From: Blastopirellula sediminis
Lineage (GTDB): Bacteria; Planctomycetota; Planctomycetia; Pirellulales; Pirellulaceae
DNA length: 64,000 bases
Assembly (NCBI RefSeq): GCF_020966755.1
Contig: NZ_JAJKFT010000004.1
Span: 1,302,001 to 1,366,000, forward strand
Direction: 5' to 3'
Shown: piece by piece, positions 16,798 through 37,061 of the stretch
Numbering within the stretch: position 1 is the stretch's first letter
How the letters are laid out: every line of letters begins with the position of its first letter
Made by a program: the position numbers and the translations under genes
The notes under the pieces: generated by a model
Told to the model about the DNA's origin: nothing
Database searches by the model: none
The model's input: the letters and a program-made list of their open reading frames with translations, nothing else

Positions 16798-16821
16798 TTA
16801 AGATATCTCGTGGTATCTTAA
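16798..16821. promoter_or_regulatory. Operator-like palindrome ahead of the Gfo/Idh operon
   Basis: TTAAGATA (16798-16805) and TATCTTAA (16814-16821) form perfect 8-bp arms around an 8-bp spacer with a central CpG. The core is GATATC-TCGT-GGTATC (16802-16817). A TTTACG box lies 17 bases before TATCTT, so the palindrome fills the space between possible -35 and -10 boxes. Start of the gene is 86 bases further on. The core recurs at 22525, 22742, 23181 and 37046. Confidence 0.6.
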
Positions 16822-16906
16822 ATGCAATTCCTTTCCTGAAGTCGCCGGCGCATGCGTACGGCGAAGTTGCTCCTTCCCCAGCCACCCACCACCTGGAACG
16901 ATACGT

Positions 16907-17887
16907 ATGAAGATCCTCCTTTCCGCCGCCATCGGTCTGGCGGTCGCTGCTGTGATGAGCGGCGGCGCCAATGCTGCTGAGACGATTCGCATTGGTCTGA
17001 TCGGTCTCGATAGCTCGCACGCGATTGCGTTCTCGAAGTCGATCAACGCCGAGCCTTCGAAGCCGGAACTGGCCGGCGCCAAAATCGTCGCCGCGTTCCC
17101 CGGCGGAAGCCCCGACATTGCGGCCAGCACCGACCGGATCGAAGGATTTACGAAGCAGATCAGCGACATGGGAATCGAAATCGTTCCCTCGATCGAAGTG
17201 CTGCTGAAGAAAGTGGACGCCGTCGTGATCAACAGCGTCGACGGCCGCGTTCACCTGAAGCAGGTCAAACCGGTGTTTGAAGCGGGGATTCCGGTCTTCG
17301 TCGACAAGCCGATGACCGGCTCGCTGGCCGAAGCGAAGGAGTTGGTGGCGTTATCGAAGAAGACCGGCACGCCGTTCTTCTCCTGCTCTTGCTTGCGATA
17401 TTGCGATGACGTCGTCGCGCTGCAAAAAGAGAACGCCGCCGGCAATCTGGTCGGTTGCGTCGCGTTCAGTCCTTGCACCACCGATCCGACCCACCCTGAC
17501 CTTTACTGGTACGGGATTCACGGCGTCGAAACCTTGTTCACGGTGATGGGGCCCGGCTGCGTCAGCCTTCAACGTACGAAAGTGGATGGAGTCGACGTCG
17601 TGACCGGCGTCTGGAAAGATGGACGCGTCGGCACGTTCCGCGGCATTCGCGACGGCTCCAAAGGATACGGCGTGCTCGCCTTCGGCGAAAAAAAGAACGA
17701 GTACGTCCCGATCCGCGTTTCTTACGAACCGATGCTGGTCGAAGTGGTAAAATTCTTCCACACGAAGAAGCCGCCGATTTCGCCCGAAGAAACGCTCGAA
17801 ATCATGGCCTTCATGACGGCGGCCGACGTCAGCCGCGACCTGGACGGGAAGAGCGTGACGCTGGAAAGCGTGCTGAACGCGAAGTAA
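16907..17887 (+). CDS. Exported Gfo/Idh/MocA-family oxidoreductase
   Basis: A 326-residue protein with a Sec signal peptide (residues 1-24, ending NAAE). An N-terminal Rossmann domain follows (IRIGLIGLDSSHA in place of the usual GxGxxG), then FVDKPMTGS, which fits the family's EKP-type motif with Asp for Glu. The family uses a tightly bound NAD(P) to oxidise or isomerise sugars; export in planctomycetes is common and the substrate is unknown. It is followed after 56 bases by a second Gfo/Idh gene and then a LacI regulator. The operator-like palindrome at 16798 lies upstream. Confidence 0.82.
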   Translation: MKILLSAAIGLAVAAVMSGGANAAETIRIGLIGLDSSHAIAFSKSINAEPSKPELAGAKIVAAFPGGSPDIAASTDRIEGFTKQISDMGIEIVPSIEVLLKKVDAVVINSVDGRVHLKQVKPVFEAGIPVFVDKPMTGSLAEAKELVALSKKTGTPFFSCSCLRYCDDVVALQKENAAGNLVGCVAFSPCTTDPTHPDLYWYGIHGVETLFTVMGPGCVSLQRTKVDGVDVVTGVWKDGRVGTFRGIRDGSKGYGVLAFGEKKNEYVPIRVSYEPMLVEVVKFFHTKKPPISPEETLEIMAFMTAADVSRDLDGKSVTLESVLNAK

Positions 17888-17943
17888 CGTCCGCTTAAGA
17901 TCTAACTACCAGTCAAACTATTTCCGCTTGTAAGGAAAACTGC

Positions 17944-19392
17944 ATGGTTTCGGTCAATCGCCGCCATTTTCTCGCCGCCGCTTCGGCCGCCGCTTTCACT
18001 TCGATGACGTCGCTCGGTCGTTCGGCGGAAGCCAATGACGAGTTGCGCGTCGTCGTGATCGGCGTCAACAGCATCGGCAACACCCACTTGAACGGCTTTC
18101 CCAAGATTCCCGGCGTCAAAGTCGTGGGGGCTTGCGATTGCGACAGCGCGGTGCTTGGGACGCGAGTTGAAGAGTTTGACAAGAAGTTCGGCTATCAGCT
18201 GAAGAAGTACGAAGACCTCCGCCGCGTTTTCGACGATCAAGACGTCGACGCGGTGGTGGTCGGCATGCCGAATCACTGGCACGGGCTGGCGACCGTCTGG
18301 GGCTGCCAGGCGGGCAAAGACGTTTACACCGAAAAGCCCTGCTCCCACAACATCTGGGAAGCGGGCCAGATGGCCAAGGCGGCTGAGAAGTACGATCGCA
18401 TCGTCCAGATCGGCATCCAGCGCCGCAGCTTCAAGCACCTGCAAGACTTCTTCCAGGAAGTGCACGAAGGCGCCCTCGGCAAAATCAAAAACGTGAAGGG
18501 GCTTTACCTGTCGCGTCGCGAATCGATCGGCCGTCCGACCTCGCAGCCGACGCCGCCGGCCACGGTCAATCATGACCTCTGGTGCGGACCGGGCTCGACG
18601 AAGCTCGAACGGGCCAAGTATCACTACGACTGGCACTGGTTCTGGGATTACGGCAACGCCGAACTCGGCAACAACGGCCCGCACATTCTCGATCTCTGCC
18701 GCTGGGCCGTAGGCGCCGAAGAATTTCCGACCGCCGTCTCCAGCATCGGCGGACGTTACGCGTGGGATGACAACGGCCAGACGCCGAATACGCACCTCCT
18801 GCGTTATGAATACGCCAAGGCGCCGATCACGTTCGAGATCCGCGACCTGCCGACCGCGACCGGTAAGAAAGATACCTGCGATTACATGGGTCTCAGCTAC
18901 GGGATCGTGATCGAAGGGGAAGAGGGGACCTACCTCGGATTTGATACCGGGAAGGTGGTTGATCCCGACGGCAAGACGATTCGTGAGATCAAGGGAGACA
19001 CCGGCAGCGATGGCGGACGTCAGCTTCATCGCGAAAACTTCGTGAAAGCGGTCCGTTCGCGAAAGACCAGCGATCTCAATTGCCCCGTGAAAACGGGTCA
19101 TCTCTCGACGGCGCTGTGCCATTTGGGGAACATTTCGCATCGAACCGGCGAGGCCGTTTCCCTCTCGTCCCTCTCCGAACGGATCCAGGATCAGCCGCTG
19201 ATGTCGGACGCCGCCGCTCGAATGACCGAGCATTTGGCCGCCAACGGCGTGGATGTGGCGACCGCCGCCGTCGAAATGGGGCGGACTTTAACGATTGATC
19301 CGACGACCGAAACCTTCCCGGGGGACGAAGCGGCCAATCGTCTGCTGCGGCGCGAATATCGGGCGCCGTTCGTCGTTCCAGAACAAGTCTAA
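17944..19392 (+). CDS. Tat-exported Gfo/Idh/MocA-family oxidoreductase
   Basis: A 482-residue protein with a twin-arginine leader (VNRRHFLAAASAAAF), so it is folded, with cofactor, before export. The Rossmann domain has VVVIGVNSIGNTH, the family motif YTEKPCSHN near residue 135, and a C-terminal domain with DWHWFWDYGNAELGNNGPH, typical of the planctomycete group. Sugar oxidoreduction is inferred from the family. It probably forms an operon with the gene at 16907. Confidence 0.87.
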   Translation: MVSVNRRHFLAAASAAAFTSMTSLGRSAEANDELRVVVIGVNSIGNTHLNGFPKIPGVKVVGACDCDSAVLGTRVEEFDKKFGYQLKKYEDLRRVFDDQDVDAVVVGMPNHWHGLATVWGCQAGKDVYTEKPCSHNIWEAGQMAKAAEKYDRIVQIGIQRRSFKHLQDFFQEVHEGALGKIKNVKGLYLSRRESIGRPTSQPTPPATVNHDLWCGPGSTKLERAKYHYDWHWFWDYGNAELGNNGPHILDLCRWAVGAEEFPTAVSSIGGRYAWDDNGQTPNTHLLRYEYAKAPITFEIRDLPTATGKKDTCDYMGLSYGIVIEGEEGTYLGFDTGKVVDPDGKTIREIKGDTGSDGGRQLHRENFVKAVRSRKTSDLNCPVKTGHLSTALCHLGNISHRTGEAVSLSSLSERIQDQPLMSDAAARMTEHLAANGVDVATAAVEMGRTLTIDPTTETFPGDEAANRLLRREYRAPFVVPEQV

Positions 19393-19553
19393 GTCGCCCA
19401 GTTGGGCCATCGGGCCCGCCGAACTTCCTCGGCGGGCTTGCCTGAAGCGCGGTTTGTTACGTATTCTGGAGGGCTTGCGAATTCAATTGCGGCCCGAAAA
19501 CGCCGGACGAAGTGGTCCGGCGCTGGCTGGCCGGCCTTGGCAAGTCGAAGTGC

Positions 19554-20591
19554 ATGGCCGAAGAAGAACGAAAAGTTCGTCTAGTAGATATCGCCAATAA
19601 AGCTGGCGTCTCGCGCGCAGCGGTTGGACATATTCTGAACAACTCCGGGGTCGACAGCGTCCGCGTGTCGGAAGCGACGCGCCAAAAGGTGCTGAAGATC
19701 GCCGAGGAGCTCGATTATCGACCGAACCGAGCGGCCCAGCGGTTGCGCGGCATGCCGACCAAGATCATCGGCGTCGTGCTCGACACGGTGAACCGCGCGG
19801 TCTTCTCGGCTCGTCTCTCCGCGATCGAAGCCGAAGCGCACTCGCGCGGGTACCGCTTGATGATCGGTCAGGCCCATCACGACCCGGACGAAATCAAATC
19901 GTATCTCGACGACTTTGCGGATCACGGCATGGACGCGATCCTTTGCATGTTCGACTTGATGCAGGACTTCCGGCCGAAGTTGAAGAAGATCTTCCGCGAT
20001 CGGAACAACATCATTCTCCACTCGCAGCCGATTTTGAAAACGCAGCCCTGCGTGCGCGTCGAAACTTCCTCGGCGATTGAGCAACTGGTCGATCACCTGG
20101 CCGACCGGGGACGCAAACGGGTCGCGATTCAACTTTGGTCTCCGACCGACCAATTGATGGCGATTCGCTGCGAGGCCTGGAAGGCGAACGTCAAACGTCG
20201 CAAGCTGGCGACCAGCGAGTCGCTGATCTGGACCAATCCCGAAGCGACCCAAAAGCCGTCGCGCGATGCGATCGACGACTGCATTCAGAAGCTGGTCGTG
20301 AAGAACAAAGCGGACGCCATCATCGCGTCGAACGACGAATGGGCGGTGCGCATCATGCAAGGCTTGCACCGCCATGGCTACAAGGTGCCGGAAGATTTGG
20401 CGGTGACCGGCTACGATAATCTCGACATCGCCGACGTGATCGAGCCGGGGCTGACGACGATCGATCAGTGTCACGCCGCCTACGCCAAAGCGACCCTCGA
20501 CCTGGTCGAAGAGTCGCTGCAAGGAGAGATTCCCGCGGCGAAACGAGTCCGCGTGATTCGCCCCGAACTGGTCGTCCGCGAATCGACGTAG
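19554..20591 (+). CDS. LacI-family transcriptional regulator
   Basis: A 345-residue regulator with an N-terminal helix-turn-helix ([20 protein letters not shown]), the hinge helix NRAAQRLRG and a periplasmic-binding-protein-like effector domain with [19 protein letters not shown] near the end. The start at 19554 puts the HTH at the usual position; an in-frame upstream GTG would add an atypical leader. It follows the two Gfo/Idh genes by 161 bases and is the obvious candidate regulator for them, with a sugar-type effector. Its recognition helix (SRAAVG) differs from common LacI types, so its operator cannot be predicted from known ones. Confidence 0.88.
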
Positions 20592-20599
20592 TTGGCTTC

Positions 20600-20706
20600 T
20601 GGTGGCATGCTCTTGCGGCGTCTTCGCCGGATGAGCATGTCTTGAATGCGTTTCGGAACTTCTCGAAGACATGCTCACTCGGCTATCCTCGTGAGAGCAT
20701 GCAGCC
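20600..20706. repeat. Palindromic element, family B, copy 2
   Basis: The left arm TGGTGGCATGCTCTTGCGGC (20600) matches copy 1 at 15498. The right arm starts GAAGACATGCTCACTC (20665) and is more diverged. It starts 8 bases after the lacI stop and ends about 8 bases before the nagA stop, repeating the geometry of copy 1. Confidence 0.8.
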
Positions 20707-20714
20707 CGCGAGTC

Positions 20715-21692
20715 TTACGGCGCGGTCGCCGGGTGAACGCCGTTCTTGGCGACATAGCGGGTTGGCGCCGGAATCGCGGCGCCCATGATTCGCCGCGGAT
20801 TCATGCGGGTCAGACGATCGATTTCGACCGGCGTCAGGCCCAGCTCGCGCTCCAGGTTCTCGGCCATCCGCCGCATCGTCGTCCCCGACCCAATCAGGTG
20901 GCTGTCATCTTCGGCACGCGGCACGCCATCTTCGCCGACCTGCACGACTCGATCTCCCAGCGGATACAAGCCGGGACCGCAACCAGCGGCCGAGATTGCA
21001 TCCGACACGATGAACGCGCGATCGAGGCCGGTGATTTGCAGGTAGTTCTTCAAAGCGAAGAAGGGAACGTGGGCGCCGTCGGCGATGAAGCCGAAGTAAA
21101 GCTGGTCGGCTCGACTAAGAGCACGCTGAATGATGTTGTCATGGCGATCCATCAGACGCGGGCAACCGTTCCCCAGGTGCGTGAACATCGAGAGCCCGGC
21201 GTCAATCGAAGCGTCGAGTTGGTCGAGCGACGCGTTGGTGTGCCCGGCCGAGACGACGATTCCTTGTTTGGCCAAACGACGCGTCACGTCATGTTCAGGA
21301 TCTTGTTCAGGAGCCAGCGTGACGATGCGGGCCAGTCCGTCCGCGGCGTCGAGCAGCAGCGTCATCTCGTCCCAGGTCGCCTCTTTGGCGTGAGCCACCG
21401 GGTGAGCGCCGACGTAGCCGACCTTGGTGCTGATGAACGGACCTTCGATATGAAAGCCGGCGATCATGCGGCTAATCAGTGGATCGGCGATACGCAGTTG
21501 CACGAAGCGCGACAAGCGAGCCGCCATCCGCGCGATGTCGTCGGTAATGATCGTCGCCAGCACGCCGCCGACGTTGTCGCGCTCTAGCGCCGCGCAAGCG
21601 TTGTGCAGGTCGTCCGCCGAAATGTCGTCTTGATTGAAGTCGACGCCGAAGTAGCCGTTAATTTGCAGGTCGAAGAACTTGGAGTCAGGCAT
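20715..21692 (-). CDS. nagA: N-acetylglucosamine-6-phosphate deacetylase, short form
   Basis: The product has the NagA barrel motifs: [13 protein letters not shown] at the very start, HIEGPF with metal-ligand Glu83, SAGHTNA, THLGNG, DGAHV and SDAI (catalytic Asp). It converts GlcNAc-6-P to GlcN-6-P plus acetate. At 325 residues it is about 55 shorter than the usual NagA: it begins where the barrel begins and stops at [10 protein letters not shown], so both strands groups of the small beta-sandwich domain are missing. It lies 17 bases downstream of nagB, in the same operon. Confidence 0.85.
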
Positions 21693-21709
21693 GCGGTATT
21701 CCAGGCGTT

Positions 21710-22459
21710 CTAGAGGGTCGAGGAGGCGGTCAATTCCGATGCGGAGGCTTTGTCGAGAAACAACGACGTCTCCGCATGGTTTTGCAAAATCGAGGCGGGA
21801 ACATCCGGGGTTACGGGACCTTCCACCGAGTTGCGGACCGCAATCGCTTTGCGCTCGTCAGGGACGCTGCAAATGATGGTCTTGGTACGCAGGATTTGTT
21901 GACAAGACATGCTGATGGCCCGAGTCGGGACATCCTCTAGTGTAGCGAACCAACCTTCGCCCGCCTGCTGTTTTCTGCAGGCTTCGTCCAATTCGACCAC
22001 CAGGTAGGGCGAATCGGTCTCGAAATCGGCCGGCGGGTCGTTGAAGGCCAAGTGCCCGTTCTCGCCGATGCCGACAAAGGCGACGTCGATCGGATGCTGG
22101 GCGATCAGCTCTGCTAAACGTGCACAAACCTGCTCCGGATTCGGATCGGAGCCGTCGACGTAGTGAAACGCTTTGAGCGGCACTTTGTCGACGAATCGTT
22201 CGCGCAGATAGAGACGAAACGAGGCGGGATGCTGATCGCTGATCCCAAGGTACTCGTCCAAATGGAAGCCGGTCACGCAGCTCCAGTCGATATCGGACTC
22301 GGCGATCAAGGCGGCCAAAGTCTCGAACTGGGAAGCGCCGGTGGCGACGATAATATTGGCGAAACCTTTCTCAGCGATGGCGGTTCGAATAGCGGCGGCG
22401 CCCTGACGTGCGGCGGCGACGCCCAGTTGAGAAGCGTCGTCGAAGATCTGGATATTCAT
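21710..22459 (-). CDS. nagB: Glucosamine-6-phosphate deaminase
   Basis: A 249-residue member of the NagB/6-phosphogluconolactonase fold, with [12 protein letters not shown] near residue 82 and [14 protein letters not shown] near 135, the active-site signatures of NagB. It converts glucosamine-6-phosphate to fructose-6-phosphate and ammonia, following NagA. It is the first gene of nagBA. An operator-like site lies 65-82 bases upstream of its start. No PTS or NagK kinase is present, so the origin of GlcNAc-6-P is not shown here. Confidence 0.9.
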
Positions 22460-22523
22460 GCAGGTTGGCAGGTCTGGGAGTGGGGATTAGCGGCAAAACG
22501 GAGAGAAGAATCCGCGATGCTAG

Positions 22524-22541
22524 TGATGTCACGCGATATCA
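22524..22541. promoter_or_regulatory. Operator-like site ahead of nagBA
   Basis: TGATGTCACGCGATATCA is an 18-base imperfect palindrome differing from the perfect site at 22741 at four positions. It is placed to control the leftward nagB promoter. Confidence 0.55.
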
Positions 22542-22731
22542 TTTTTGTCGCAACGGGCGACGATGTCAACTGATTTATTGGTAGGTCGCCCAGAGATTCT
22601 CAGGTCCGATTGTTAACAAGATCGGATTGCGCCGCCTGGGGATAGGGAAGAACGGCTTGTGCGCGAAACAGAGAAAAGCAGAGAATATTGCGCAATCTGG
22701 CGGAAAAACGGGAGGAAGCGTGATAATTTCT

Positions 22732-22759
22732 TTGCCAATCTGATATCAGCTGATATCAT
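22732..22759 (+). promoter_or_regulatory. Promoter with perfect 18-bp operator in its spacer
   Basis: TTGCCA (22732-22737) and TATCAT (22754-22759) are separated by 16 bases, each matching the sigma-70 consensus at 5 of 6 positions. The perfect palindrome TGATATCAGCTGATATCA (22741-22758) covers the spacer and the -10 box. Transcription would run rightward into the gap, with no clear gene before the terminator at 23149. Confidence 0.5.
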
Positions 22760-22765
22760 TGCCCT

Positions 22766-23172
22766 CAGTGAAATGACGAGTTGCACGCCGTCCGCACTTG
22801 CGGCGAACGGCGCCTTATCCAAACTCGGTCGTCGCAGCCAGAAACGTGATGAAGATGGGATTGCCCATTTTTCGCGCGATCTCCGAAATGCGACGACGAA
22901 GACGTAAGCAATCGCGTAGCGGTCGACCGCCGCAGAACGCGTAGTCGAGTAGAGAGAAGCCAGCGAATCGAGATTCGTGCGGACGAATACCGATTTGTTT
23001 GTGAGAGTCGACTCGAATGGCGCATCGTTTGCTTTTTAACTTTTAGCGTATTTGATCATGCGGATCGATGCGTCGCGAACGAAGCCGACGCGGTTGACCG
23101 TATCGAGTAGAGCTGAAAAAGAAATTGCCGCTTCCTGGTGGGGCGGTTTCGCTCGCGGGAGCGATTTTTTTT
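22766..23172 (+). ncRNA. Candidate short regulated RNA (promoter to terminator)
   Basis: This interval runs from just past the promoter at 22732-22759 to the T-run ending at 23172, about 400 nt. I see no recognised RNA family and no well-supported gene. Existence rests only on the flanking promoter-like and terminator-like signals; it could instead be a leader with attenuator for the DUF1559 gene. Confidence 0.25.
23149..23172 (+). terminator. Rightward intrinsic terminator in the nagB/DUF1559 gap
   Basis: TCGCTC (23149-23154) and GAGCGA (23159-23164) form a short GC-rich stem with a 4-base loop, followed by eight Ts. No rightward gene precedes it within the gap, which is what makes it notable. 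Confidence 0.6.
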
Positions 23173-23179
23173 ACACCCT

Positions 23180-23197
23180 AGATATCAGCTGACATCA
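23180..23197. promoter_or_regulatory. Operator-like site ahead of the DUF1559-Nramp operon
   Basis: AGATATCAGCTGACATCA matches the perfect site at 22741 in 16 of 18 positions. It starts 8 bases after the T-run of the terminator at 23172 and ends about 109 bases before the DUF1559 start. A TTTACA hexamer lies just upstream. Confidence 0.55.
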
Positions 23198-23305
23198 ACC
23201 TTGCCGCTTGGGGCGGCCGGCGAACACGAAATCAGTTTTGCGATCGAGAAACAGGCCAGTTACACGAACTTCGTATTCTTTATCTAGTCTTTGCGAGGAT
23301 TGCTT

Positions 23306-24235
23306 ATGAAACGGAACCACGGATTTACGTTGGTAGAACTTTTGGTAGTGATCGCCATTATCGGCGTTTTGATTGCGCTCTTGTTGCCGGCGGTGCAGCA
23401 AGCCCGTGAAGCGGCTCGTCGCATGCAGTGCAGCAACAACCTGAAGCAACTTGGCCTGGCGTTCCACAACTATCACGATACGTACGGCAAGTTCATGCCA
23501 GGCGGTCTAACGCCCAACGTCACGTATCCGCTTGGTTGGGTTCCCCGCTTGTTTCCCTTCTTCGAGCAAGGGACGCGTTACGACGCGATGGAAGCGCTTT
23601 ACCCGGCGTACATGATGAATCGCAGCCCTTACCGCAGCCATGATCAGACCAATCCGATTTTCGGTCCGGTTCCTTCGCTGTCGTGCCCGTCGTCGCCGCT
23701 TGGGGATACCGCGTCGGACCATGCGGTCACGTCCTTTTTTCCCAACACGCAGATTCAAGGCGCACTGCACTATCGCGGCAACGGCGGTTCGGTCGATGTG
23801 GACATCGTTCCGGCGACGACGTCGGGACGCGATCCCTACGTGAAGTCGGGTATTTTCTATCCGGAAAGCAAAGTTCGCTTTGGCGATATTGTGGACGGCA
23901 CGACCAACACGATCTTGCTCGGCGAATCGTCCAGCACCAAGGGCTGGACCACTTCCCAGGCGCAAGGCTTCGGCGGCATCAAGCCGTGGGTCTGGGGCTA
24001 CTATCGTTACAGCGCGACCGAATGGCTGATGATCGACCACAAGATGGTGCAGTTCCCGATCAACTACTCCGGTTCGTTCACCAACAGCAACACGCCGTTT
24101 ACCAGCTATCATCCGGGCGGCGCAATGTTCGCCAACTGCGACGGCAGCGTCGTCTTCTTGGCGGAAACCATGAATCTTGACATTCTGAAAGCGATGGCGA
24201 CGCGCAAGAACGGAGAGGTCGTTCCCGGGAGCTAA
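23306..24235 (+). CDS. DUF1559 prepilin-like protein
   Basis: A 309-residue protein: prepilin leader MKRNHG followed by [14 protein letters not shown], the conserved [19 protein letters not shown] segment, and the C-terminal [18 protein letters not shown] block (H-X9-DG signature). The ATG at 23306 follows GAGGA at good spacing. The next genes on the strand encode a lipoprotein (gap 99 bases) and an Nramp-like transporter. The gene is preceded by an operator-like site shared with nagBA, so co-regulation with amino-sugar use is possible. Confidence 0.9.
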
Positions 24236-24334
24236 GCTCGGACTGTTCGTTGGGGCGAGCGTCGGCCCGAACCGGCCGACGCTCGCAGAATGTTGGAGAT
24301 TGCGCTTCGTTTTACTTTTCTGGGGATGCTGATT

Positions 24335-24736
24335 ATGAAATACTCAACGCTGGCGACTTCGCTGTCCGCCGCCTTGATGATCGCACTCGTCGGCTGCGGC
24401 GCTCGCGGTCCGGAAATGGGCGATGTTATGGGAACGGTCACCTACAAAGGGAAGCCGCTTGGTACCGGAACGATAACTTTTGTGCCTGAGACGGACGGCT
24501 TGCCGATGGGGTATGCCAAAATCGGAGCCGACGGCACGTATGAAGGGTATACCGACGAATTCGGCAAAGGCGTGCCGATCGGCAAACACCGCGTCATGAT
24601 CATGGCCGTGAAGGACAACGGTCCCGAAGCGGCCGCGATGGCCTTGATTCCCTTTAAATACAGCAGCGATCGTCAATCTGGTTTGACGGCCGAAGTCGCC
24701 GCCGGCGAGAATACGGTCGATTTCAAGTTGGAATAG
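24335..24736 (+). CDS. Lipoprotein with carboxypeptidase-regulatory-like fold
   Basis: A 133-residue protein with a type II signal peptide and lipobox ALVGC (Cys near 21). The mature part starts with GDVMGTVTYKGKPLGTGTIT, typical of the small beta-sandwich (transthyretin/CarboxypepD_reg-like) lipoproteins that often follow DUF1559 genes in planctomycetes; a similar protein follows the DUF1559 gene at 37244. The start at 24335 gives a proper signal peptide; an in-frame ATG at 24290 would add 15 residues. Function is unknown. Confidence 0.72.
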   Translation: MKYSTLATSLSAALMIALVGCGARGPEMGDVMGTVTYKGKPLGTGTITFVPETDGLPMGYAKIGADGTYEGYTDEFGKGVPIGKHRVMIMAVKDNGPEAAAMALIPFKYSSDRQSGLTAEVAAGENTVDFKLE

Positions 24737-24818: not shown

Positions 24819-24843
24819 CACTTCATTTCAAGGCAAGGTTTGA

Positions 24844-26127
24844 ATGTCGGAAGCGACGATCGAAAAACAGAGCGGAATTTCTCTCCTGCGGGTCGTGAAG
24901 GCGATCGGACCGGCGATTGTCGTCGCGTCGGTTGTGCTCGGTCCCGGGAGCATTTTGTCGAACTCGAAAGTCGGCGCGGCTTACGGGTACGACATGATCT
25001 GGGTCTTGGGGCTCGCTTCGGTCTTCATGGCGCTGACCGTCTTTTTGGCGGCGGTCCTGGGCATCAGCTACGCCGAAACTCCGTTTACCGAAATCGCCAA
25101 TCGACTGGGACGCCCTGTCTCGATCGTGATCGGCGTCGTCTTCTTTTTGATTACCAGTTGCTTTCAGTTCACCAATAACCTCGCGATTATCGACGTGGTG
25201 AACATCGCCACCGAGTCAGCCGGCGGTGGGATGCTGGCGAAATATGGATCGCTGGTCGCCATCGTGCTGGTCAATCTTGGGCTGATATGGGCCTTATACG
25301 GCAGCAGCGCCCCGTATCGGTTCATCGAAAAGCTGATGATGGTGATGGTCGGATTGATGCTGCTCGGGTTTATGGTGAACCTGATCTTCGTGCAGCCGTC
25401 GCTGCCTGGCGTGTTGGGGGGCATGGTGCCGAAGTTGCCGGAAGGGGGAACATCGCCTGAGAACATCGTGATGCTGCTCGGGATGTTCGGGACCACCTTC
25501 TCGATCGCCGGCGCCTTCTACCAGATTTACGCCGTTCGCGAAAAGAACTGGACTCGCGACGACTTGGCCAACGGCATCGTCGACTCGATCGCCGGGATCG
25601 CCGTACTGGGCGGGATCAGCTTCGTCATCATGATCACTTCCGCGACCGTTTTGCACGGCGCCAATCTGACCAACATTACCGATGTGGCGAAACAACTGGA
25701 GCCGCTGATCGGCCCGCAAGCGAAAGTGATGTTCTGCATCGGCTTGTCGGCCGGGGCGTTCAGTTCGCTGCTGGTCAATGCTTTGATCGGCGGTACGGCG
25801 CTCAGCGACAGCCTTGGGCTGCCGGCCAGCGTCAAAGATGGCCCGGTCAAAGCGATGACTGTCGCCGGGTTGATGATCGGCATGCTGGTCGCCATCGCAA
25901 TCAACTGGCTCGAGATGTCGAACGTGCAGTTGATCGTCTTCGCCCAGGCGCTGACCGTGATCGGCGTGCCGCTGTTGGCGTTTGCGATGCTCTTTTTGTC
26001 GCTGAAACTGGAGCCCTCGAAGCTGAAAGCCGCCGCGATTGCGATCGCTTCCGCCTCGTTGTTGTTGGCGCTGCTGTTATCGGGCCGAATGCTGATGTCG
26101 CTGATTCAGAAGCTGATGGCTTCCTAG
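24844..26127 (+). CDS. Divergent Nramp-family transporter lacking the canonical metal site
   Basis: A 427-residue membrane protein with about 11 helices and the overall Nramp (PF01566-like) pattern: amphipathic N-terminus, broken first helix, YAETPFTEIANRLGRPV after helix 2. The helix-1 metal motif that is DPGN in Mn/Fe transporters reads GPGS here (residues 33-36), and the helix-6 motif, normally with MPHN, reads GTTFSIAGAFYQIYAV (from about residue 216). Both metal-coordinating segments are therefore altered, so transport of Mn2+ or Fe2+ should not be assumed. It follows a DUF1559 gene and a lipoprotein gene and ends at a strong terminator. Confidence 0.78.
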   Translation: MSEATIEKQSGISLLRVVKAIGPAIVVASVVLGPGSILSNSKVGAAYGYDMIWVLGLASVFMALTVFLAAVLGISYAETPFTEIANRLGRPVSIVIGVVFFLITSCFQFTNNLAIIDVVNIATESAGGGMLAKYGSLVAIVLVNLGLIWALYGSSAPYRFIEKLMMVMVGLMLLGFMVNLIFVQPSLPGVLGGMVPKLPEGGTSPENIVMLLGMFGTTFSIAGAFYQIYAVREKNWTRDDLANGIVDSIAGIAVLGGISFVIMITSATVLHGANLTNITDVAKQLEPLIGPQAKVMFCIGLSAGAFSSLLVNALIGGTALSDSLGLPASVKDGPVKAMTVAGLMIGMLVAIAINWLEMSNVQLIVFAQALTVIGVPLLAFAMLFLSLKLEPSKLKAAAIAIASASLLLALLLSGRMLMSLIQKLMAS

Positions 26128-30208: not shown

Positions 30209-30275
30209 CGCAAATCGATTCGCTTCGGACTCGAACCAACTTCCCGCTCGAAGCCAAAGCCAAAAGGCGTTCACC

Positions 30276-30713
30276 ATGAACAAAACCAATCCCGACTTCC
30301 TCCCCCGCACGATCCTGGCGTCCCTTTGGGTCTTCAGCATCTTGCTAAGCGGATGCATGCGCGTTCCTCCAACTCCGCTGACCAAAGACGACATCGCCAG
30401 GCTCGAAGCGGCCGAGCTATTTAACCTCGCAATCGAGAAACCAGGAGGCGGTACTGCGCCTCTGACGGATGCGGAAGCGAAAGCGTTTCTGCGCAGCTTG
30501 GCCAGCATCGTGGATACGACGCGTGGAAAGCTGATCGGCAGTCGCCTGCGCTGTATCGTCGTCATGCAGTCAAGCAAAGATCCCCTCTCCTTTTTCGTCT
30601 ACGACGACGGCACGCGGATGATGGTGAGCGTGGAAGGGAGCGTCTTCTTGGTAGAAAGCGATGCGGATCTCCGGAGTTGGTTGGAGCAGCAACTCCCCGC
30701 GGATTCGCCGTAA
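30276..30713 (+). CDS. Small lipoprotein, unknown function
   Basis: A 145-residue protein with lipobox LLSGC (Cys near 27). The mature part has a short helical region and a C-terminal beta-rich segment (KDPLSFFVYDDGTRMMVSVEG). I recognise no family. The frame is open upstream to 30177, but that part is the family A repeat arm, so the ATG at 30276 is preferred. Confidence 0.6.
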   Translation: MNKTNPDFLPRTILASLWVFSILLSGCMRVPPTPLTKDDIARLEAAELFNLAIEKPGGGTAPLTDAEAKAFLRSLASIVDTTRGKLIGSRLRCIVVMQSSKDPLSFFVYDDGTRMMVSVEGSVFLVESDADLRSWLEQQLPADSP

Positions 30714-31150
30714 TCTGGGTAGGGTGCGTCTGGACGCACCGCGAACCTGCCGTTGGATACATTTTCTCCATCGCGTGGCAACGCAATCGGAACCGACATC
30801 GGCGTTCTCGCGAGACCCCGTTTTCCATGGTTCCCGCAGCGTCCCAACGCACTCTACCGCACCAACGTTTTTGCTTGCTCAATTCCCCCGGTTTTTGGTA
30901 AAATCCTCGCATGATGCGGGCGTCTGATCCATCGCCCAGGGCATCCTTTTTTCTTCCCACTTCGGATTGAGCCGAGGTGGTTTGGCGACTGGAAAATGAC
31001 TTCCCAATCGCTACCTTTTTTTTTCGCCGCACGCGTTGCGGCTGCGCTAGACGTATGCGCCGAACTGGCCGGTCGAAAGTCGACGTATCCGATGGTGGCG
31101 GAGAAGCGAAGAATTGGAACGGTCCGGTCCAGTCCGGCCGGCAGCAATCG

Positions 31151-31281
31151 TAGCCCGAGGCGCGAGCCGAGGGAATGTCGAGAAAACAATCGACGAGAGT
31201 CCACGGCACTGTGGGCGGAGATTGGGATGGAGGCATTCTGGGGTCGCGAAACGCTTTCCCTCGGCTCGCGCCTCGGGCTAG
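31151..31281. repeat. Family A palindrome, GAGGCGCG subtype, complete pair
   Basis: TAGCCCGAGGCGCGAGCCGA (31151) continues GGGAATG, and its reverse complement lies at 31253-31281 (CTTTCCCTCGGCTCGCGCC then TCGGGCTAG). Relative to the main subtype, GCAGCGCAAGC is replaced by GAGGCGCGAGC while TAGCCC and GGGAATG are kept. Confidence 0.8.
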
Positions 31282-31306
31282 TTTTGCCCTGCGGAGAAAA
31301 ATGTCA

Positions 31307-31553
31307 CGGTCCAGTCCACTGGGTGAGGAAAAAAAATGCGCTGCGGTCCAGTCCACTCACAGGCGATCGCTGATCGGTTGGCGACTGGGCCGGTAACAAA
31401 AAAATGCGCTTCGCGGTCCAGTCCAATCGGTGACGAAAAAAAACGAAGCGTTGCGGTCCACATGATAGGAGGACAGGCGGGGCTGGGTAAGATTGCGAGC
31501 CGGTTTGGGGTGAGATTGGTCAGCGCAAAAAAAAACGCGCGGTCCAGTCCACT
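31307..31553. repeat. Cluster of CGGTCCAGTCCACT repeats preceded by A-tracts
   Basis: CGGTCCAGTCCACT or a close variant occurs at 31307, 31344, 31414, 31454 (partial) and 31540, each preceded within about 15 bases by a run of 5 to 9 A residues and often ATGCGCT. A related GGTCCAGTCCGG lies near 31126. Intervals of 37, 70, 40 and 86 bases are irregular. Confidence 0.8.
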
Positions 31554-31557
31554 CCGC

Positions 31558-31646
31558 CCGTAGGGTCCGCTGTGCGGACCATGGGAAGCGGTTGCGAGTT
31601 GGCCAATTCGTTCGGCGGGGCGCGGTCCGCACAGCGGACCCTACGG
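31558..31646. repeat. 23-bp perfect inverted repeat
   Basis: CCGTAGGGTCCGCTGTGCGG plus ACC (31558-31580) is the exact reverse complement of 31624-31646. Each arm also contains its own palindrome, GGTCCGC/GCGGACC. The 43-base spacer is unrelated. Confidence 0.85.
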
Positions 31647-31736
31647 AAGATGTGCGAAAGAATAACTGCGCGGGGTCCGGTCCTATTTTTGACTCGGCCT
31701 GTTTTTGAACTGGCGAAGGCGCTTTGGGACATCCGG

Positions 31737-31766
31737 CCGCATTCCCTTGCTTGCGCTGCGGGCTAC
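31737..31766. repeat. Family A palindrome, single arm
   Basis: CGCATTCCCTTGCTTGCGCT followed by GCGGGCTAC is the right arm of the main family A subtype. It ends 29 bases before the stop of the leftward glycoside hydrolase gene. Confidence 0.65.
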
Positions 31767-31794
31767 GAAGGTTCGGGCGACTGGCGAAGGACGG

Positions 31795-33573
31795 CTACTT
31801 GAACGGCTCGGTGCTGACTTCGATTTCGCCGATGACGAAGGGGACCGATTGTTCAGGGCGGATGGTGATGTCGTTGCCCCACATTTTGGCGAAGCAGGCC
31901 TCTTTGACGTGCCAGACGCCGGTTTGCCAGCCGGGATCGGCCGAGACGCCGAACCAGGTACCGACGTTCCGGTAGGGCGTTCCTCCCTGGGTGTCGGCGA
32001 CTTCATACAACAGATTCATGCCGACGTTGCCAGCGCTAACGCGGCGCACTTTTACGCGAACGTAATAGTCGCGCGTCAGGATGCTGGCGAACGTCGGATG
32101 AACGAAGAGGCTAACGGGATGTCCGATGTCTCCCTGGACGAGCAAGCCGGAGCTGCCGTCGGCGAAGGTGACGGTCGGATAGGCGTCGCGATTAAGCGGA
32201 AAGAGGCCGGCCGTTTCGTCGGCGGCGCCAGCGGAAAAGCGAACCGTTTTCGCTTGGCGGTGGTCGCCTCCCCAGGGGAAGTTTTGTGCGGCGTTCGCCT
32301 TCGCTTGGCTGACCAAGGTGGGCGACAGCGAAGTGATGAGGAGCGGAGCGTTGGTCAAGGTGAGTTTTTCGCCTGCCTCGAAGCGGCGGAGGCGCCCGGT
32401 GATCGGATCAGCGACGACGACCATGGTGGGAAAGGTGAGCGTTTGCTCTTCACCGACCGGCGACCAGGCGATCATCAAGTTCGCCTGCGTTCCGGCGAAG
32501 ACAAAGCCGTAACCGGCGCCTTGTTCGCCGAGAGCGAGCCAGCCGAGATATTTCGGTTTGGTCCCCAACTGCGTCGCCAAGGTTTTCAGCGCTGCGTAAG
32601 CGGGACGCGGTTCGCCCGAGCGATTGATCAGGCCGAAGCCTGACTCTTCGCCGTACGGATCTTGCGCTTCGAACCATTGCGTGCGGGCGATCCCCTGGGC
32701 GATCGCCATGGCGTACATCTTGACGAGCGACTGCGCGGCGTCGAGGTCGGTGGTCGGCGTGCGACCGTCCGCGTGAAGCTTGTCGCCGACTTCGCTGATC
32801 CAGATCGGCGCGTCGACTTTGTCAGGGGCCGATTCGGCCAGGATGGTGCGGAGAGTCTGGTTCATCCAGAGAAACGGAATCTCACCATTCTTGCTCCGCA
32901 GTCCGCCGGCGATTTCGTACGGATGAATGCAGAGGTAGTCGAAATGATCGGCGGCGCCGGCGTCGCGCAGCGCCAGAATCGTTTGATGCAGATAGGCCGG
33001 GTCGTAGCTGGCGACGGTCAAACCAACTTGGGCGTCGGGGTTTCCCTTTTTGGCTGCGACGTAGGTGGCCGCCGCGAGCTTGGCGTAGTCGACGGTCGTG
33101 TGGTGGGCGTCATTGAAGCCGCCGTTTCCTTCGTTCCAGACTTCCCAGTAGCGGACGTCACCTTTGTAGTGCGAGACGGCGCCTTCGACAAACTGCGACC
33201 ATGCCGGCAAGTCGTCCATCGGAAACGCGTGGACATATTTCGAGTCAGGAGGAGAACCCATCAAAATTGCGTTGAGCTGCAAATTGTTTTTCTTCGCCGA
33301 CTCGACCAGTTGATCCCCTTCTTTCCAGTTCCACTGATCGAGTTGCGGTTGGAAGGTGCGCCAGCCAGGGAAGAGTCGCACCGACGTAACGCCGGCTGTG
33401 GAAACTTTGGGGAACCACTCGGTGTGATTGCGAAATGCACTGGCCGAAGAACTGACGCCCCATGGTCCGACATCTCCGTCCGGCGACTCGGCCAGGGCAG
33501 GGGAGCAGAAGAGCGAAGCGAACGTGATCGCAAACGCATAAGCGGCGGCGAAGTAGCGGGGCGACAGGAACAA
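31795..33573 (-). CDS. Exported clan-A glycoside hydrolase-like protein
   Basis: About 592 residues: a signal peptide (to about residue 29, ending SPALAES), a (beta/alpha)8 domain with acid/base Glu148 in WEVWNEGNGG and candidate nucleophile Glu261 in WISEVG, as in GH39/GH5-type enzymes, and a C-terminal beta-rich domain. Substrate is unknown. I assign the TTG at 33573 as start because GGAG sits 6 bases ahead of it and it places the signal peptide at the N-terminus; the frame is open to an ATG at 33834, which would put 87 non-signal-like residues in front. Confidence 0.72.
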   Translation of the reverse strand: MFLSPRYFAAAYAFAITFASLFCSPALAESPDGDVGPWGVSSSASAFRNHTEWFPKVSTAGVTSVRLFPGWRTFQPQLDQWNWKEGDQLVESAKKNNLQLNAILMGSPPDSKYVHAFPMDDLPAWSQFVEGAVSHYKGDVRYWEVWNEGNGGFNDAHHTTVDYAKLAAATYVAAKKGNPDAQVGLTVASYDPAYLHQTILALRDAGAADHFDYLCIHPYEIAGGLRSKNGEIPFLWMNQTLRTILAESAPDKVDAPIWISEVGDKLHADGRTPTTDLDAAQSLVKMYAMAIAQGIARTQWFEAQDPYGEESGFGLINRSGEPRPAYAALKTLATQLGTKPKYLGWLALGEQGAGYGFVFAGTQANLMIAWSPVGEEQTLTFPTMVVVADPITGRLRRFEAGEKLTLTNAPLLITSLSPTLVSQAKANAAQNFPWGGDHRQAKTVRFSAGAADETAGLFPLNRDAYPTVTFADGSSGLLVQGDIGHPVSLFVHPTFASILTRDYYVRVKVRRVSAGNVGMNLLYEVADTQGGTPYRNVGTWFGVSADPGWQTGVWHVKEACFAKMWGNDITIRPEQSVPFVIGEIEVSTEPFK

Positions 33574-33949
33574 GCGGGACTCCAGCGTCGATTCTGGGGG
33601 CAATGGCAAAGCGCGTTCTCTATTAAATGTGTTGGCGGCGACGCGAAGGTTTCGGATTTTTCTCGTAACCAATGCGAAAAGAAACGCAATTTGAAGGAGG
33701 AATTTGCATGCGATAAGATTCGAACCTCCGCTCTGCCCGCGGTGGCGCCGGAAATGGGGAACGAATGCCAGTGTTTTGTGCACAATGTTTGGCCAGTAGG
33801 ATGGAAAATACTTCCTGGGCCAGTAAAATCTCATAGATCAACGAGTACAATTGGACGTCATAACGAGGGGCGCCCCCGCTACTTGTCGATCCCACCCCAC
33901 GTTCACCCAACAACGCTCCGTCATTTCACGCCAAAGGAAACTCATTCTC
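33574..33949. other. 376-base gap between divergent genes
   Basis: It should hold the promoters of both the leftward glycoside hydrolase and the rightward Gfo/Idh gene. I see no GATATC-type site, repeat or RNA structure in it that I can support. Confidence 0.5.
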
Positions 33950-35320
33950 ATGGTTAAGTCTGGTCACGCGACACGTCGCCAATTTTTGCAAGGCATGGCC
34001 GCGGCTGGCGCCGCCGGCGCTTTGGTTTCGCCTGCTTCTCTTGTGATGGGCGCCGAGTCGCCGAACGAACGTCCGGTTTTCGCGACCATCGGTCTGCGTA
34101 ACCAAGGTTGGGGCATCACCAGCAAATCGTTGGGCTTGGCCGACTTCGCCGCTTTGGCCGATGTCGACGCCAACGTGTTGGGGACGAACGTCGAGCGCGT
34201 GAAAGAGCGTCAGAAGAAAGCTCCGGACGCTTACAAGGACTACCGCAAGATTCTGGAACGGAACGACATCGACGCGGTCATGATCGCGACCCCGGATCAC
34301 TGGCACACCAAGATCTCGGTCGAAGCGATGCTGGCCGGCAAAGACGTCTACTGCGAAAAGCCGCTGACGCTGACGATCGACGAAGGAAAGCTGATCGAAA
34401 AGATCGTGAAGCAGACCGGTCGCGTCTTCCAGGTCGGCACGATGCAGCGGTCCGAAAGCGATAAACGCTTCTTGCAGGCGATCGCGCTGATTCGCGCCGG
34501 CCGTATCGGCAAGGTGCAGAAGATCACCTGCGGCATCAACGGCACGAGCGGTTCGCCGGAGATTCCGGTCGCTTCGGTTCCGGCCGAATTGGATTGGGAC
34601 TTCTGGCTCGGCCCGGCCCCGAAGGTCGACTATCGCGCGTTGCCGGAAATTCGCCAAGGTTACGGCGGCGGCGTGCCGCTGTACAGCAACTGCCATTACT
34701 CGTTCCGCGAATGGCACGAATACGCCGGCGGCAAGCTGACCGACTGGGGCGCTCACCACGTCGACATCGCCTGCTGGGCGCTGGGCGAAGACGCCAACAG
34801 CCCGAAGAAGATTTCGCCGGTCAGCTATTCGTTGCCGGTCGAATACAAAGACGGCTACCCGTTGGTTCACGATCGTTACAACGTCGCGACGAAATTCAAC
34901 ATCAAAGTGGAGATGCCGAACGACGTCGAACTGACGATCACCAGCGAAGGGGACAACGGCATCCTGTTCGAGGGAACCGACGGCCGCTTCTTCGTCAACC
35001 GCGGCAAGATCGTCGGCGCTCCGGTCGAAGCGTTGGCCACGAACCCGCTGCCGGAAGGCGCCATCGAAGCGGTCTACGGCGGTCCGGTTCCGTCGAACCA
35101 CACCGCGAACTGGATCGAAGCGATGAACGCGCGCAAGCAGCCGATTTCGGACGTCTGGTCGCACAACCGCATGCTCGAGATCTGCCATCTCTCGAACATC
35201 GCGATGCGTCTGGGCCGCGACCTGAACTGGGACGCGTCGAAGCGCGAAATCGTCGGCGACGACCAGGCCAACGCGTTCCTCGCTCGCGAAAGCCGCAAGG
35301 GTTACGAGATCAACATGTAG
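33950..35320 (+). CDS. Tat-exported Gfo/Idh/MocA-family oxidoreductase
   Basis: A 456-residue protein with a twin-arginine leader (ATRRQFLQGMAAAGAAGA), the Rossmann domain (first loop altered to IGLRNQGWG), the EKP motif (DVYCEKPLTLTID near residue 136) and a C-terminal domain with GGKLTDWGAHHVDIACWALG. An exported sugar oxidoreductase is inferred from the family. It is monocistronic, ending at a terminator. It encodes the third such enzyme of the window and its codon use (heavily GCC/GGC/CTG) suggests high expression. Confidence 0.88.
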   Translation: MVKSGHATRRQFLQGMAAAGAAGALVSPASLVMGAESPNERPVFATIGLRNQGWGITSKSLGLADFAALADVDANVLGTNVERVKERQKKAPDAYKDYRKILERNDIDAVMIATPDHWHTKISVEAMLAGKDVYCEKPLTLTIDEGKLIEKIVKQTGRVFQVGTMQRSESDKRFLQAIALIRAGRIGKVQKITCGINGTSGSPEIPVASVPAELDWDFWLGPAPKVDYRALPEIRQGYGGGVPLYSNCHYSFREWHEYAGGKLTDWGAHHVDIACWALGEDANSPKKISPVSYSLPVEYKDGYPLVHDRYNVATKFNIKVEMPNDVELTITSEGDNGILFEGTDGRFFVNRGKIVGAPVEALATNPLPEGAIEAVYGGPVPSNHTANWIEAMNARKQPISDVWSHNRMLEICHLSNIAMRLGRDLNWDASKREIVGDDQANAFLARESRKGYEINM

Positions 35321-35346
35321 TCTTGGACTACCAAAGCTGAACCTTC

Positions 35347-35384
35347 AAAAGAGTCGCTGGCGCGGTTGCGTCAGCGGCTCTTTT
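35347..35384. terminator. Intrinsic terminator after the Gfo/Idh gene
   Basis: AAAAGAGTCGCTGGCGC pairs with GCGTCAGCGGCTCTTTT around GGTT with two mismatches; the T-run and A-run let it act on both strands. Confidence 0.8.
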
Positions 35385-35594
35385 CACGTATTGCCCGCAC
35401 GATCGGCAGAATCGTCGCGACCGCAACAGCACTACGATTTGCGACGTTTGCGGCAGAAAACCGCAAGCAGGAACCCCGTTGTTCTCGAAATGTCGCGTCA
35501 TTAGTGACCTAAGTTTTTGGGCAACAGTTTTGGCCGCTGCGGCGGCGTTCAACTATCCCAAACAGGGCGAGCAATCGCCGTTAGAAGGCACACC

Positions 35595-36701
35595 ATGAAG
35601 ACGCAATTTCGTACTTTCGCCCGCGTTGGTATCGTCGCAACCTTGTTGATGACGCTGATCGCACAGCCGTTGTCGGCTTGCACTGGATTGCGATTGATCT
35701 CGGCCGATGGCGGCACGGTGATCGGACGAACGATGGAGTTCGGTTTTGATCTGCAGTCGAAGGCGCTGGTCGTGCCGGCCGGAGTTCGCCTCCGTAACAC
35801 GCTGACCGATCCGAGCCAGGGAATGAGCTACGACGCGAAGTACGGCTTCGTCGGGGCCAATGTGCTGGGGTTTGAGATGATCGTCGACGGCGTGAACGAT
35901 CAAGGATTGTACGTCGGCTCGTTTTACTTCCCCGGATACGCTGGCTACGCGACCCTTGGCCCGGACAACCAAGACCGGGCCCTGGCGCCGGAAGATTACG
36001 GCATGTGGCTGTTGGCCAACTGTGCGACGGTGGCGGAAGTCAAACAGCGCTACAACGAAGTGGTGCTGGTTGATCGCCCGATCGAACAGCTCGGCGGCAA
36101 GAACTTCGACGGGCACTTTGTGGTGCACGACCATACCGGCGCCAGCGTGGTGATCGAACCGATCGACGGCGGTCTGCGGATCTACGACAACCCGCTCGGC
36201 GTGATCACCAACTCGCCGACCTTCGATTGGCACATGACCAACCTGCGTAACTACATCAACCTGAGCGTCTCGAACGTCCCGGCGGTGAAGATGGAAGATA
36301 TCCAGCTGAGCGGCTTTGGTCAGGGGAGCGGCCTGCATGGTCTTCCCGGCGACTCGACCCCGCCGTCGCGATTCGTCCGCGCGGTCGCTTATTCGCAAGC
36401 GGCCAACCAACTGAAGACGACCGAAGAGACGGTCAACCAGGTCTTTCACCTGATGAATGCGTTCGACATCCCGGTCGGCTCGATCCGCGAGAAGGATGGA
36501 AGCACGGTGACCGAGGACTACACGTTGTGGACGACCGTTTCGGACCTGAAGAACGTCCGTTGGCTCTTCCGCACCTACGGCGACCAGACGATCCGCTGTA
36601 TCGACGTCCGTAAAGCGACGAAGGAGGCCGGCGACAAGATCCAGGTGATCGAGATGAAATCGACCCAGCCGATCGCCGACATCTCGACTGACTTCAGCTA
36701 A
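35595..36701 (+). CDS. Exported Ntn hydrolase, choloylglycine hydrolase/penicillin V acylase family
   Basis: A 368-residue protein with a signal peptide (residues 1-28, ending LSA) directly followed by Cys29 in CTGLRLISADGG; removal of the leader exposes this Cys as the N-terminal nucleophile, as in family C59. GRTMEFGFDL follows, and GVITNSPTFDWHMTNLRNY holds the conserved Asn. These enzymes cut amide bonds (bile salts, penicillin V, N-acyl homoserine lactones). In an aquatic bacterium a linear amide or acyl-homoserine lactone is more likely than bile salts, but this is inference. Single gene with its own terminator. Confidence 0.85.
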   Translation: MKTQFRTFARVGIVATLLMTLIAQPLSACTGLRLISADGGTVIGRTMEFGFDLQSKALVVPAGVRLRNTLTDPSQGMSYDAKYGFVGANVLGFEMIVDGVNDQGLYVGSFYFPGYAGYATLGPDNQDRALAPEDYGMWLLANCATVAEVKQRYNEVVLVDRPIEQLGGKNFDGHFVVHDHTGASVVIEPIDGGLRIYDNPLGVITNSPTFDWHMTNLRNYINLSVSNVPAVKMEDIQLSGFGQGSGLHGLPGDSTPPSRFVRAVAYSQAANQLKTTEETVNQVFHLMNAFDIPVGSIREKDGSTVTEDYTLWTTVSDLKNVRWLFRTYGDQTIRCIDVRKATKEAGDKIQVIEMKSTQPIADISTDFS

Positions 36702-36737
36702 CGCAGTTAAGAGCGGCAAAACCATCGAGAGTGAAGA

Positions 36738-36767
36738 GCGGCGACCGAATTGCGGTCGACCGCTTTT
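36738..36767 (+). terminator. Intrinsic terminator after the Ntn hydrolase gene
   Basis: GCGGCGACCG pairs with CGGTCGACCGC (bulge of one base) around AATTG, followed by TTTT. Confidence 0.7.
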
Positions 36768-37045
36768 CGCATGAAGGAGCCGTCGCGTTTTGAAGAATTG
36801 CTAGACTCGAATGGATCGCTACAGTTTACCGGCAGTGCAAAATAATTCTTATTTCGCGCAATGATCCGCACAGTTGGCGGAGCGACAGCATTGCCTTCGA
36901 AATGGAACCGAGGTTCTAACGGAATAGCGCCTCTGGAGAATTCCATTCACCCAAAGGTGTGGATCGCAATGCTGAATTGCGCATCACTTGCTTCCAATTA
37001 GGAGGCAGTTTCTCGGTCGTCCGCAAAATCGAGTGATTACGGGTA

Positions 37046-37061
37046 GATATCTCGTAACATC
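37046..37061. promoter_or_regulatory. Operator-like site ahead of a DUF1559 operon
   Basis: GATATC-TCGT-AACATC, the second of two sites with the TCGT centre. The match to the site at 16802 extends beyond the core: upstream ATTACG against TTTACG, and downstream GTAAATCC against TTAAATGC. It lies about 182 bases upstream of the gene start. Confidence 0.55.

Follow-up and report, generated by a model that had tools for sequence, protein, structure and literature searches.

A conserved 16-bp palindrome at dispersed promoters of Blastopirellula sediminis, a probable operator of a LacI-family protein

Introduction

What reads the 16-bp palindrome that recurs ahead of sugar-metabolism and DUF1559 genes in the planctomycete Blastopirellula sediminis? 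The question arises from a 64,000-nucleotide stretch of this bacterium's DNA (positions 1302001–1366000 of contig C4 in a 7.05-Mb genome), which we refer to as the window and within which all unlabelled coordinates are given. An original prediction, made from the window sequence, held that GATATC-N4-GATATC marks five intergenic promoters, that these form a shared regulon, and that the product of a LacI-family gene at 19554 is a candidate for binding the TCGT-centred sites. It proposed two checks, promoter enrichment across the genome and conservation at orthologous promoters. This planctomycete genome abounds in DUF1559 genes and also has sulfatase and Gfo/Idh genes; to our knowledge, little is known about the conditions under which the latter are used. 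At the level of titles and the opening lines of abstracts, we found no published description of this operator or of any planctomycete LacI regulon.

Here we show that the palindrome is enriched genome-wide, is placed mainly between genes, is conserved in two genera and co-occurs with the LacI-family gene. Its refined form, GATATCwCGwGATATC, is very probably the operator of the protein encoded at 19554–20591, which we call P0001 and which would act as a repressor with a dispersed sugar regulon.

Results

A palindrome with a wCGw centre is enriched and mostly intergenic

We located all five predicted sites (16802, 22525, 22742, 23181 and 37046), and gene calls from a codon-usage model trained on the window genes, applied to the window and to the fetched surroundings of sites elsewhere, place each of them between genes. 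O1 (16802–16817, plus strand), GATATCTCGTGGTATC or GATATC-TCGT-GGTATC, lies in the promoter of the Gfo/Idh-Gfo/Idh-LacI operon. O2 (22525–22540, minus strand), GATGTCACGCGATATC, precedes nagB, 66 bp from its start; O3 (22742–22757, plus strand), GATATCAGCTGATATC or GATATC-AGCT-GATATC, falls in the nagB/DUF1559 intergenic region; and O4 (23181–23196, plus strand), GATATCAGCTGACATC or GATATC-AGCT-GACATC, stands ahead of an operon described as DUF1559-lipoprotein-Nramp. O5 (37046–37061, plus strand), GATATCTCGTAACATC or GATATC-TCGT-AACATC, precedes a second DUF1559 operon. The accompanying statement that every other GATATC is coding was inexact, as the one at 16726 lies just outside a called gene.

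The N4 form occurs in the window at chance level (21 matches with 3 mismatches vs 18.15 expected, a count reached in 26 of 100 shuffles), and alone it therefore proves nothing. Nor is the centre free, as first proposed: across 44 hand-listed sites of the genus, a set that includes many orthologous copies, 80% have C at position 8 and 93% have A or T at position 7, both strands considered. With the centre restricted to wCGw, a choice made after the sites were seen, the refined pattern GATATCWCGWGATATC (GATATCwCGwGATATC) gives six window matches with up to 3 mismatches vs 0.58 expected, a number reached in none of 100 shuffles. We rejected the sixth match, at 40625, as an operator, because an in-frame ATG indicates that a coding region begins there.

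Across the genome, the refined pattern has 51 sites with up to 3 mismatches and its reversed form 4, while a composition-matched control palindrome, GTATACWCGWGTATAC, has 1 site and 5 when reversed; control patterns are thus about 10–50 fold rarer. The idea of a shared regulon is supported, and five promoters proved too few. A scan of the window and the fetched stretches recovered 51 sites. Thirty-nine of these were scored intergenic by script (15 of 17 with up to 2 mismatches and 24 of 34 with 3), where non-coding DNA makes up 15.7% of the scanned stretches (binomial p ~1e-21, a value that ignores composition). Counting 40625 as coding lowers the figure to 38, and the proposed enrichment at promoters holds with either number.

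Passages of Ravcheev et al. 2014 (PMC4052901) describe LacI-family motifs as mostly even palindromes of 16–22 nt with a central CG, found mostly 140–30 bp upstream of genes and rarely in coding DNA. The refined pattern, an even 16-bp palindrome centred on CG, has this form, and its placement agrees as well: conserved sites lie mostly 44–190 bp upstream, O3 being the exception. AGCT- or AGGT-type centres with up to 1 mismatch occur in the B. sediminis genome only at 22742, at 23181 and at one Gfo/Idh promoter, with a few more AGCT-type centres in a sister genus.

The operators are conserved in congeners and a sister genus

We compared the gene cluster around O1–O4 in seven genomes: B. sediminis, its congeners G001, G002 (Blastopirellula marina DSM 3645) and G003, and G100, G116 and G033 of the sister genus. 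The Gfo/Idh-Gfo/Idh-LacI genes, the opposite-strand nagA-nagB pair, the DUF1559 gene and the Nramp gene are preserved in the three congeners, with insertions in places, and the sister-genus genomes have the same cluster with sites at the corresponding positions. O1, O2, O3 and O4 are found in all seven genomes, which bears out conservation at orthologous promoters for these four. For O5 the result is ambiguous, since the B. marina DUF1559 gene that carries a site matches the gene at 37244 at 78.3% and another site-bearing DUF1559 gene of B. sediminis at 77.8%.

O1 is an identical 16-mer flanked by TTTACG and TATCTT in the three congeners and becomes GATGTCACGTGGTATC with TTTACT in the sister genus; O2 is likewise identical in the congeners and reads GATGTCACGAGACATC in the sister genus. 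When the DNA between nagB and the DUF1559 gene is aligned among the four congeners (mean column identity 68%), O2 and O3 stand out as islands of near-complete identity. The same automatic alignment puts O4 of G001 off register, but that genome does carry the site. The left half of O3 is GATATC in the own genus and GATGTC in the sister genus, and its centre is AGCT in B. sediminis and the three sister-genus genomes and ACCT in the three congeners. As the centre drifts by species while the half-sites stay, P0001 is a likely binder of the AGCT sites too. The proposal that the LacI gene is a candidate for the TCGT sites stands, and its lower rating for the AGCT sites probably does not.

Outside the window, nine B. 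sediminis loci have a site ahead of an orthologous gene in at least one of the three congeners. These genes encode a 472-residue protein without a Pfam match, a DUF1559 protein, a 3-keto-disaccharide hydrolase, a Gfo/Idh protein, a DLH-type hydrolase, a DUF7133-cytochrome protein, a second sulfatase and, doubtfully, a ceramidase-like protein; at the ninth locus, one site is common to a sulfatase gene and a divergent cytochrome-type gene. The ceramidase-like case (L037/L160) is doubtful because, by eye, the site appears to lie within the signal-peptide-coding region in both genomes, and its conservation may be that of coding DNA. Further congener sites were scored intergenic in 17 of 17 cases in B. 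marina (16 on a stricter count, the ceramidase-like site being probably coding), in 9 of 10 in G003 (10 fetched from 22 counted genome-wide, cluster included) and in 3 of 5 in G001.

Two further sequence features were noted. Between O3 and O4 (22860–23036), where no gene is called, all four congeners share short stretches around CATTTTTCG..GCGA, GAAGACGTAAGCA and GGCGCATCGTTTGC, which the sister genus keeps in part; a search of 15400–38300 against Rfam at the gathering threshold gave no match. These stretches could be the site of another protein or belong to RNA, either a leader or a small transcript from O3. Separately, GATATCCCGATATATC or its complement appears once among the motif matches of each of G071, G081, G100, G112 and G116 of the sister genus; it may be coding DNA under conservation or an element of another kind.

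P0001 is the candidate regulator

P0001 (19554–20591, plus strand) is our candidate protein for all sites. Its start was set by homology with B. marina and G003, the open reading frame itself opening at a GTG at 19512. An N-terminal LacI helix-turn-helix (PF00356, 52.9 bits vs a cut-off of 27; 55.2 bits in the genome search) is followed by a C-terminal, periplasmic-binding-protein-like effector domain (PF13377, 93.6 bits, residues 193–359), and residues 22–347 and 24–357 align to the solved LacI-family structures 3h5o and 3ctp, respectively. At E 0.001, P0001 matches 17 NCBIfam models of known LacI orthologue groups (CcpA, RbsR, PurR, GalR, Cra and others) and exceeds the cut-off of none.

The B. 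sediminis genome encodes two LacI-family proteins, P0001 and P0002 (56926–57963), both inside the window. We rejected P0002 as the regulator: the only LacI match in B. marina is the P0001 orthologue at the cluster (NZ_CH672376.1, 93% identical), yet that genome has 21 sites with up to 2 mismatches. LacI matches were found in 13 of 30 genomes searched, B. sediminis among them; with the other 17 lacking any, a broad LacI regulon is mildly surprising.

A collection scan with P0001 returned one close match, that of B. marina, and 11 other loci at 23–50% over their best segments. In a search of 396 genomes of the order, 36 had a match at 1e-20. Among the matches listed, orthologues at 82–94% occur in four genomes of the own genus and eight of the one sister genus and nowhere else, and the next-best match is at 48%. 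In one of the twelve, G166, the match is reported with two internal stops, and its open frame has 346 residues. The recognition helix is identical in all twelve, and the hinge stretch after RPN is the same apart from one Arg-to-Lys change in G166.

The motif follows this distribution. Sites with up to 2 mismatches number 17, 8, 21, 22, 13, 12, 12, 10, 9, 9, 9 and 3 in the twelve orthologue-bearing genomes vs 0–5 in 33 other family members, whose reversed controls give 0–2 (Mann-Whitney p 5e-7, in a test that treats related genomes as independent, which they are not). Fourteen genomes from other families of the order have 0–7, the 7 belonging to G023, where the control gives 5. More distant LacI relatives (G371, at 48%, G082 and G184) accompany no motif excess, with 2 sites each vs 1, 0 and 1 in the controls, and the intergenic DNA of their loci holds no palindrome with 7 of 8 pairs and a central CG, or with 8 of 8.

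The location of the gene also points to P0001. In all seven clusters it lies behind O1 and two Gfo/Idh genes, within about 7 kb of O2–O4, and Pfam recognised no other regulator among the eight called genes between 16907 and 26127.

Operators cover presumed promoter elements

Promoter elements were read by eye and are presumed. In a presumed promoter made up of TTTACG (16791–16796), 17 bp and TATCTT (16814–16819), O1 covers the spacer and the −10; all four congeners share TTTACG-N17-TATCTT. O2 lies directly downstream of a −35-like TTGAC[A/T] (22564–22569, minus strand), a word present in the seven genomes, and of a presumed −10, over the presumed transcription start. O3 falls within a possible plus-strand promoter, TTTGCC-N17-TATCAT. 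The DUF7133 operator overlaps the presumed −35, and a −10-like TATACT comes after it in each of the two genomes compared. The operator of the DLH gene comes after a TAGAAT/TAAAAT word. Operators that lie over presumed promoter elements suggest repression.

One locus has a compound arrangement. At L030 (4201–4226), GATATC-like half-sites occur three times at 10-bp spacing and make up two operators that overlap in a common half-site; these stand ahead of the 3-keto-disaccharide hydrolase gene, and the half-sites are partly kept in B. marina.

Candidate target genes

O1 is followed by two Gfo/Idh/MocA oxidoreductase genes, the first at 16907–17887 (plus strand; PF01408, E 1e-10; "exported" was the original prediction's label) and the second at 17944–19392 (plus strand), for which the best NCBIfam model is glycoside 3-dehydrogenase at 129.4 bits vs a cut-off of 750. 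Behind O2 are the genes of a NagB-like glucosamine-6-phosphate deaminase/isomerase (21710–22459, minus strand; TIGR00502, 133.6 bits, cut-off 236.9) and a NagA-like deacetylase (20715–21692, minus strand; TIGR00221, 160.6 bits, cut-off 225.65; no Pfam match at 0.001). O4 precedes a DUF1559 (SBP_bac_10) protein with an N-terminal prepilin-type motif (23306–24235, plus strand; PF07596, E 5.9e-52, and PF07963), a 148-residue protein without a Pfam match that had been labelled a lipoprotein (24290–24736, plus strand) and an Nramp-family transporter (24844–26127, plus strand; PF01566, E 3.3e-50). The transporter has gene order and operator in common with the DUF1559 protein beside nagBA, an arrangement that is conserved. 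Downstream of O5 lies another DUF1559 protein (37244–38269, plus strand; PF07596, E 1.6e-54).

DUF1559 genes are the first behind sites at six loci (23306 and 37244 in the window, and L028, L033, L040 and L173) and, by coordinates, are later genes at a seventh (L044); DUF1559 matches number 143 in the genome as a whole, partial ones included. Other candidate targets, known from B. sediminis sites only, include a Rhodopirellula-type extracytoplasmic function (ECF) sigma factor, carbon-nitrogen hydrolase, HlyD-type and UbiA-type proteins, and an MFS transporter whose gene starts 14 bp downstream of a 3-mismatch site. The list draws on those site neighbours that were scanned for families. The site ahead of the sigma factor, which is of Rhodopirellula/Verrucomicrobium type, also has 3 mismatches (L039, 4257–4272); the factor could provide a second tier of control.

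Discussion

From these sequence comparisons, we infer that P0001 is the binding protein, that it represses and that a sugar is its effector. A P0001 dimer would bind both half-sites, its hinge at the central base pair, and would cover the −35, spacer, −10 or start of target promoters until a sugar-type effector releases it; our guess is an amino-sugar derivative, for example N-acetylglucosamine 6-phosphate or glucosamine 6-phosphate. With its own operon behind O1, P0001 would be autoregulated, and it would control up to a few dozen dispersed candidate promoters of genes for Gfo/Idh proteins, NagA/NagB-like enzymes, sulfatases, a 3-keto-disaccharide hydrolase, esterase-type hydrolases and cytochrome/DUF7133 proteins, and of several DUF1559 operons. 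Gene content suggests that the regulon joins amino-sugar use with surface proteins.

Several observations weigh against this interpretation. The twelve co-occurring genomes represent two genera, and the correlation may therefore reflect one evolutionary event; other genes unique to the two genera would correlate with the motif too. Some sister-genus members outside the matches listed may lack P0001, and G199 carries an orthologue yet has only 3 sites, with 1 in the control. O3 and O4 depart from the central CG, with GC or CC instead. Called genes contain 10 of the 34 3-mismatch sites and 2 of the 17 with fewer, some of the sites probably being chance matches, and AT-rich words are expected to be somewhat commoner in intergenic DNA anyway. 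Among fetched congener sites, 14 of 32 have no partner among the B. sediminis targets. The NagA and NagB assignments fall below the NCBIfam cut-offs, and the Gfo/Idh site at L031, upstream of the presumed −35, is in a position that would suit an activator as well.

The palindrome could be a genuine operator but belong to some other dimeric regulator that only the two genera have, with the LacI gene as a target or neighbour. Sequence cannot by itself tell which protein binds, 16-bp palindromes are bound by many regulators, and the co-occurrence is limited to these genera; we nevertheless consider this unlikely, given the position of the LacI gene in all seven clusters, a central CG and even spacing that fit LacI-family operators, the invariant recognition helix and the lack of another Pfam-recognised regulator among the eight called genes. 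That P0001 chiefly activates, or has a dual role, is improbable as well: the L031 site lies just upstream of its presumed −35, and passages of PMC4052901 describe FruR/Cra as both repressing and activating, but the O1, O2, DUF7133 and DLH sites cover presumed promoter elements. We find it quite improbable that two regulons overlap, with LacI on CG-centred sites and a second factor on O3 and O4. These two sites lack a CG centre in all seven genomes read, and AGCT-type sites with up to 1 mismatch are a small set in each of seven genomes searched; against this, half-sites and spacing are the same, O3 alternates between AGCT and ACCT among species, and LacI-family motifs with other or degenerate centres are reported in passages of PMC4052901. 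A separate AGCT regulon is further weakened by the fact that only 3 of 12 B. sediminis matches to the AGCT-type pattern have up to 1 mismatch, the other 9 being CG-type or marginal. Chance, in the form of GATATC words in AT-rich intergenic DNA, would explain the window-level behaviour of the loose N4 form and has a negligible probability given the rarity of control patterns, the 0–5 sites in 33 family members outside the two genera and the conservation of orthologous sites.

Repression by P0001 thus remains our preferred reading. More tentatively, P0001 may be a broad glycan-scavenging switch of Blastopirellula and the sister genus that co-induces amino-sugar catabolism, sulfatases, keto-glycoside enzymes and a few DUF1559 proteins. 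If so, those DUF1559 proteins would be sugar-induced surface parts for glycan capture, which would suggest a function for a large planctomycete family. That DUF1559 genes keep company with sugar catabolism, at 6 or 7 loci, offers a testable clue to what they do, and the defined operator and single candidate repressor of B. marina allow one to ask which sugar induces.

Among known systems, the LacI-family global regulators CcpA, FruR/Cra and PurR, and the alphaproteobacterial GluR, GapR and PckR, come closest. The GATATC half-site is not known from any of these, and the candidate target set of P0001 differs from theirs. As passages of PMC4052901 describe, these regulators have the domain architecture seen in P0001 and, as here, an even palindrome with a central CG and many dispersed targets in sugar metabolism; the stem "planctomycet" is absent from the main text of that paper. 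Of the NCBIfam models, RbsR matches P0001 best, at 183.9 of the 382 bits required; the CcpA and PurR models give 119.5 of 442.35 and 116.7 of 501 bits.

A second parallel is offered by regulators of nag genes in other lineages, such as NagR of bifidobacteria, a ROK-family protein; elsewhere, nag genes are under proteins of the ROK, GntR or LacI type. As described in PMC9599254, nag genes are among the targets of NagR within a broad regulon, as we propose for P0001. A third is 3-keto-glycoside degradation, with its BT_2158-type glycoside 3-dehydrogenase and its 3-keto-disaccharide hydrolase (PF06439). The candidate regulon holds a PF06439 enzyme (L030) together with a Gfo/Idh protein for which glycoside 3-dehydrogenase is the best model, but here the dehydrogenase score falls well short of the equivalog cut-off, its genes are scattered rather than in one operon, and the activity is putative. 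Set beside these systems, the operator and the regulon of P0001 would be a new case of the LacI-family type.

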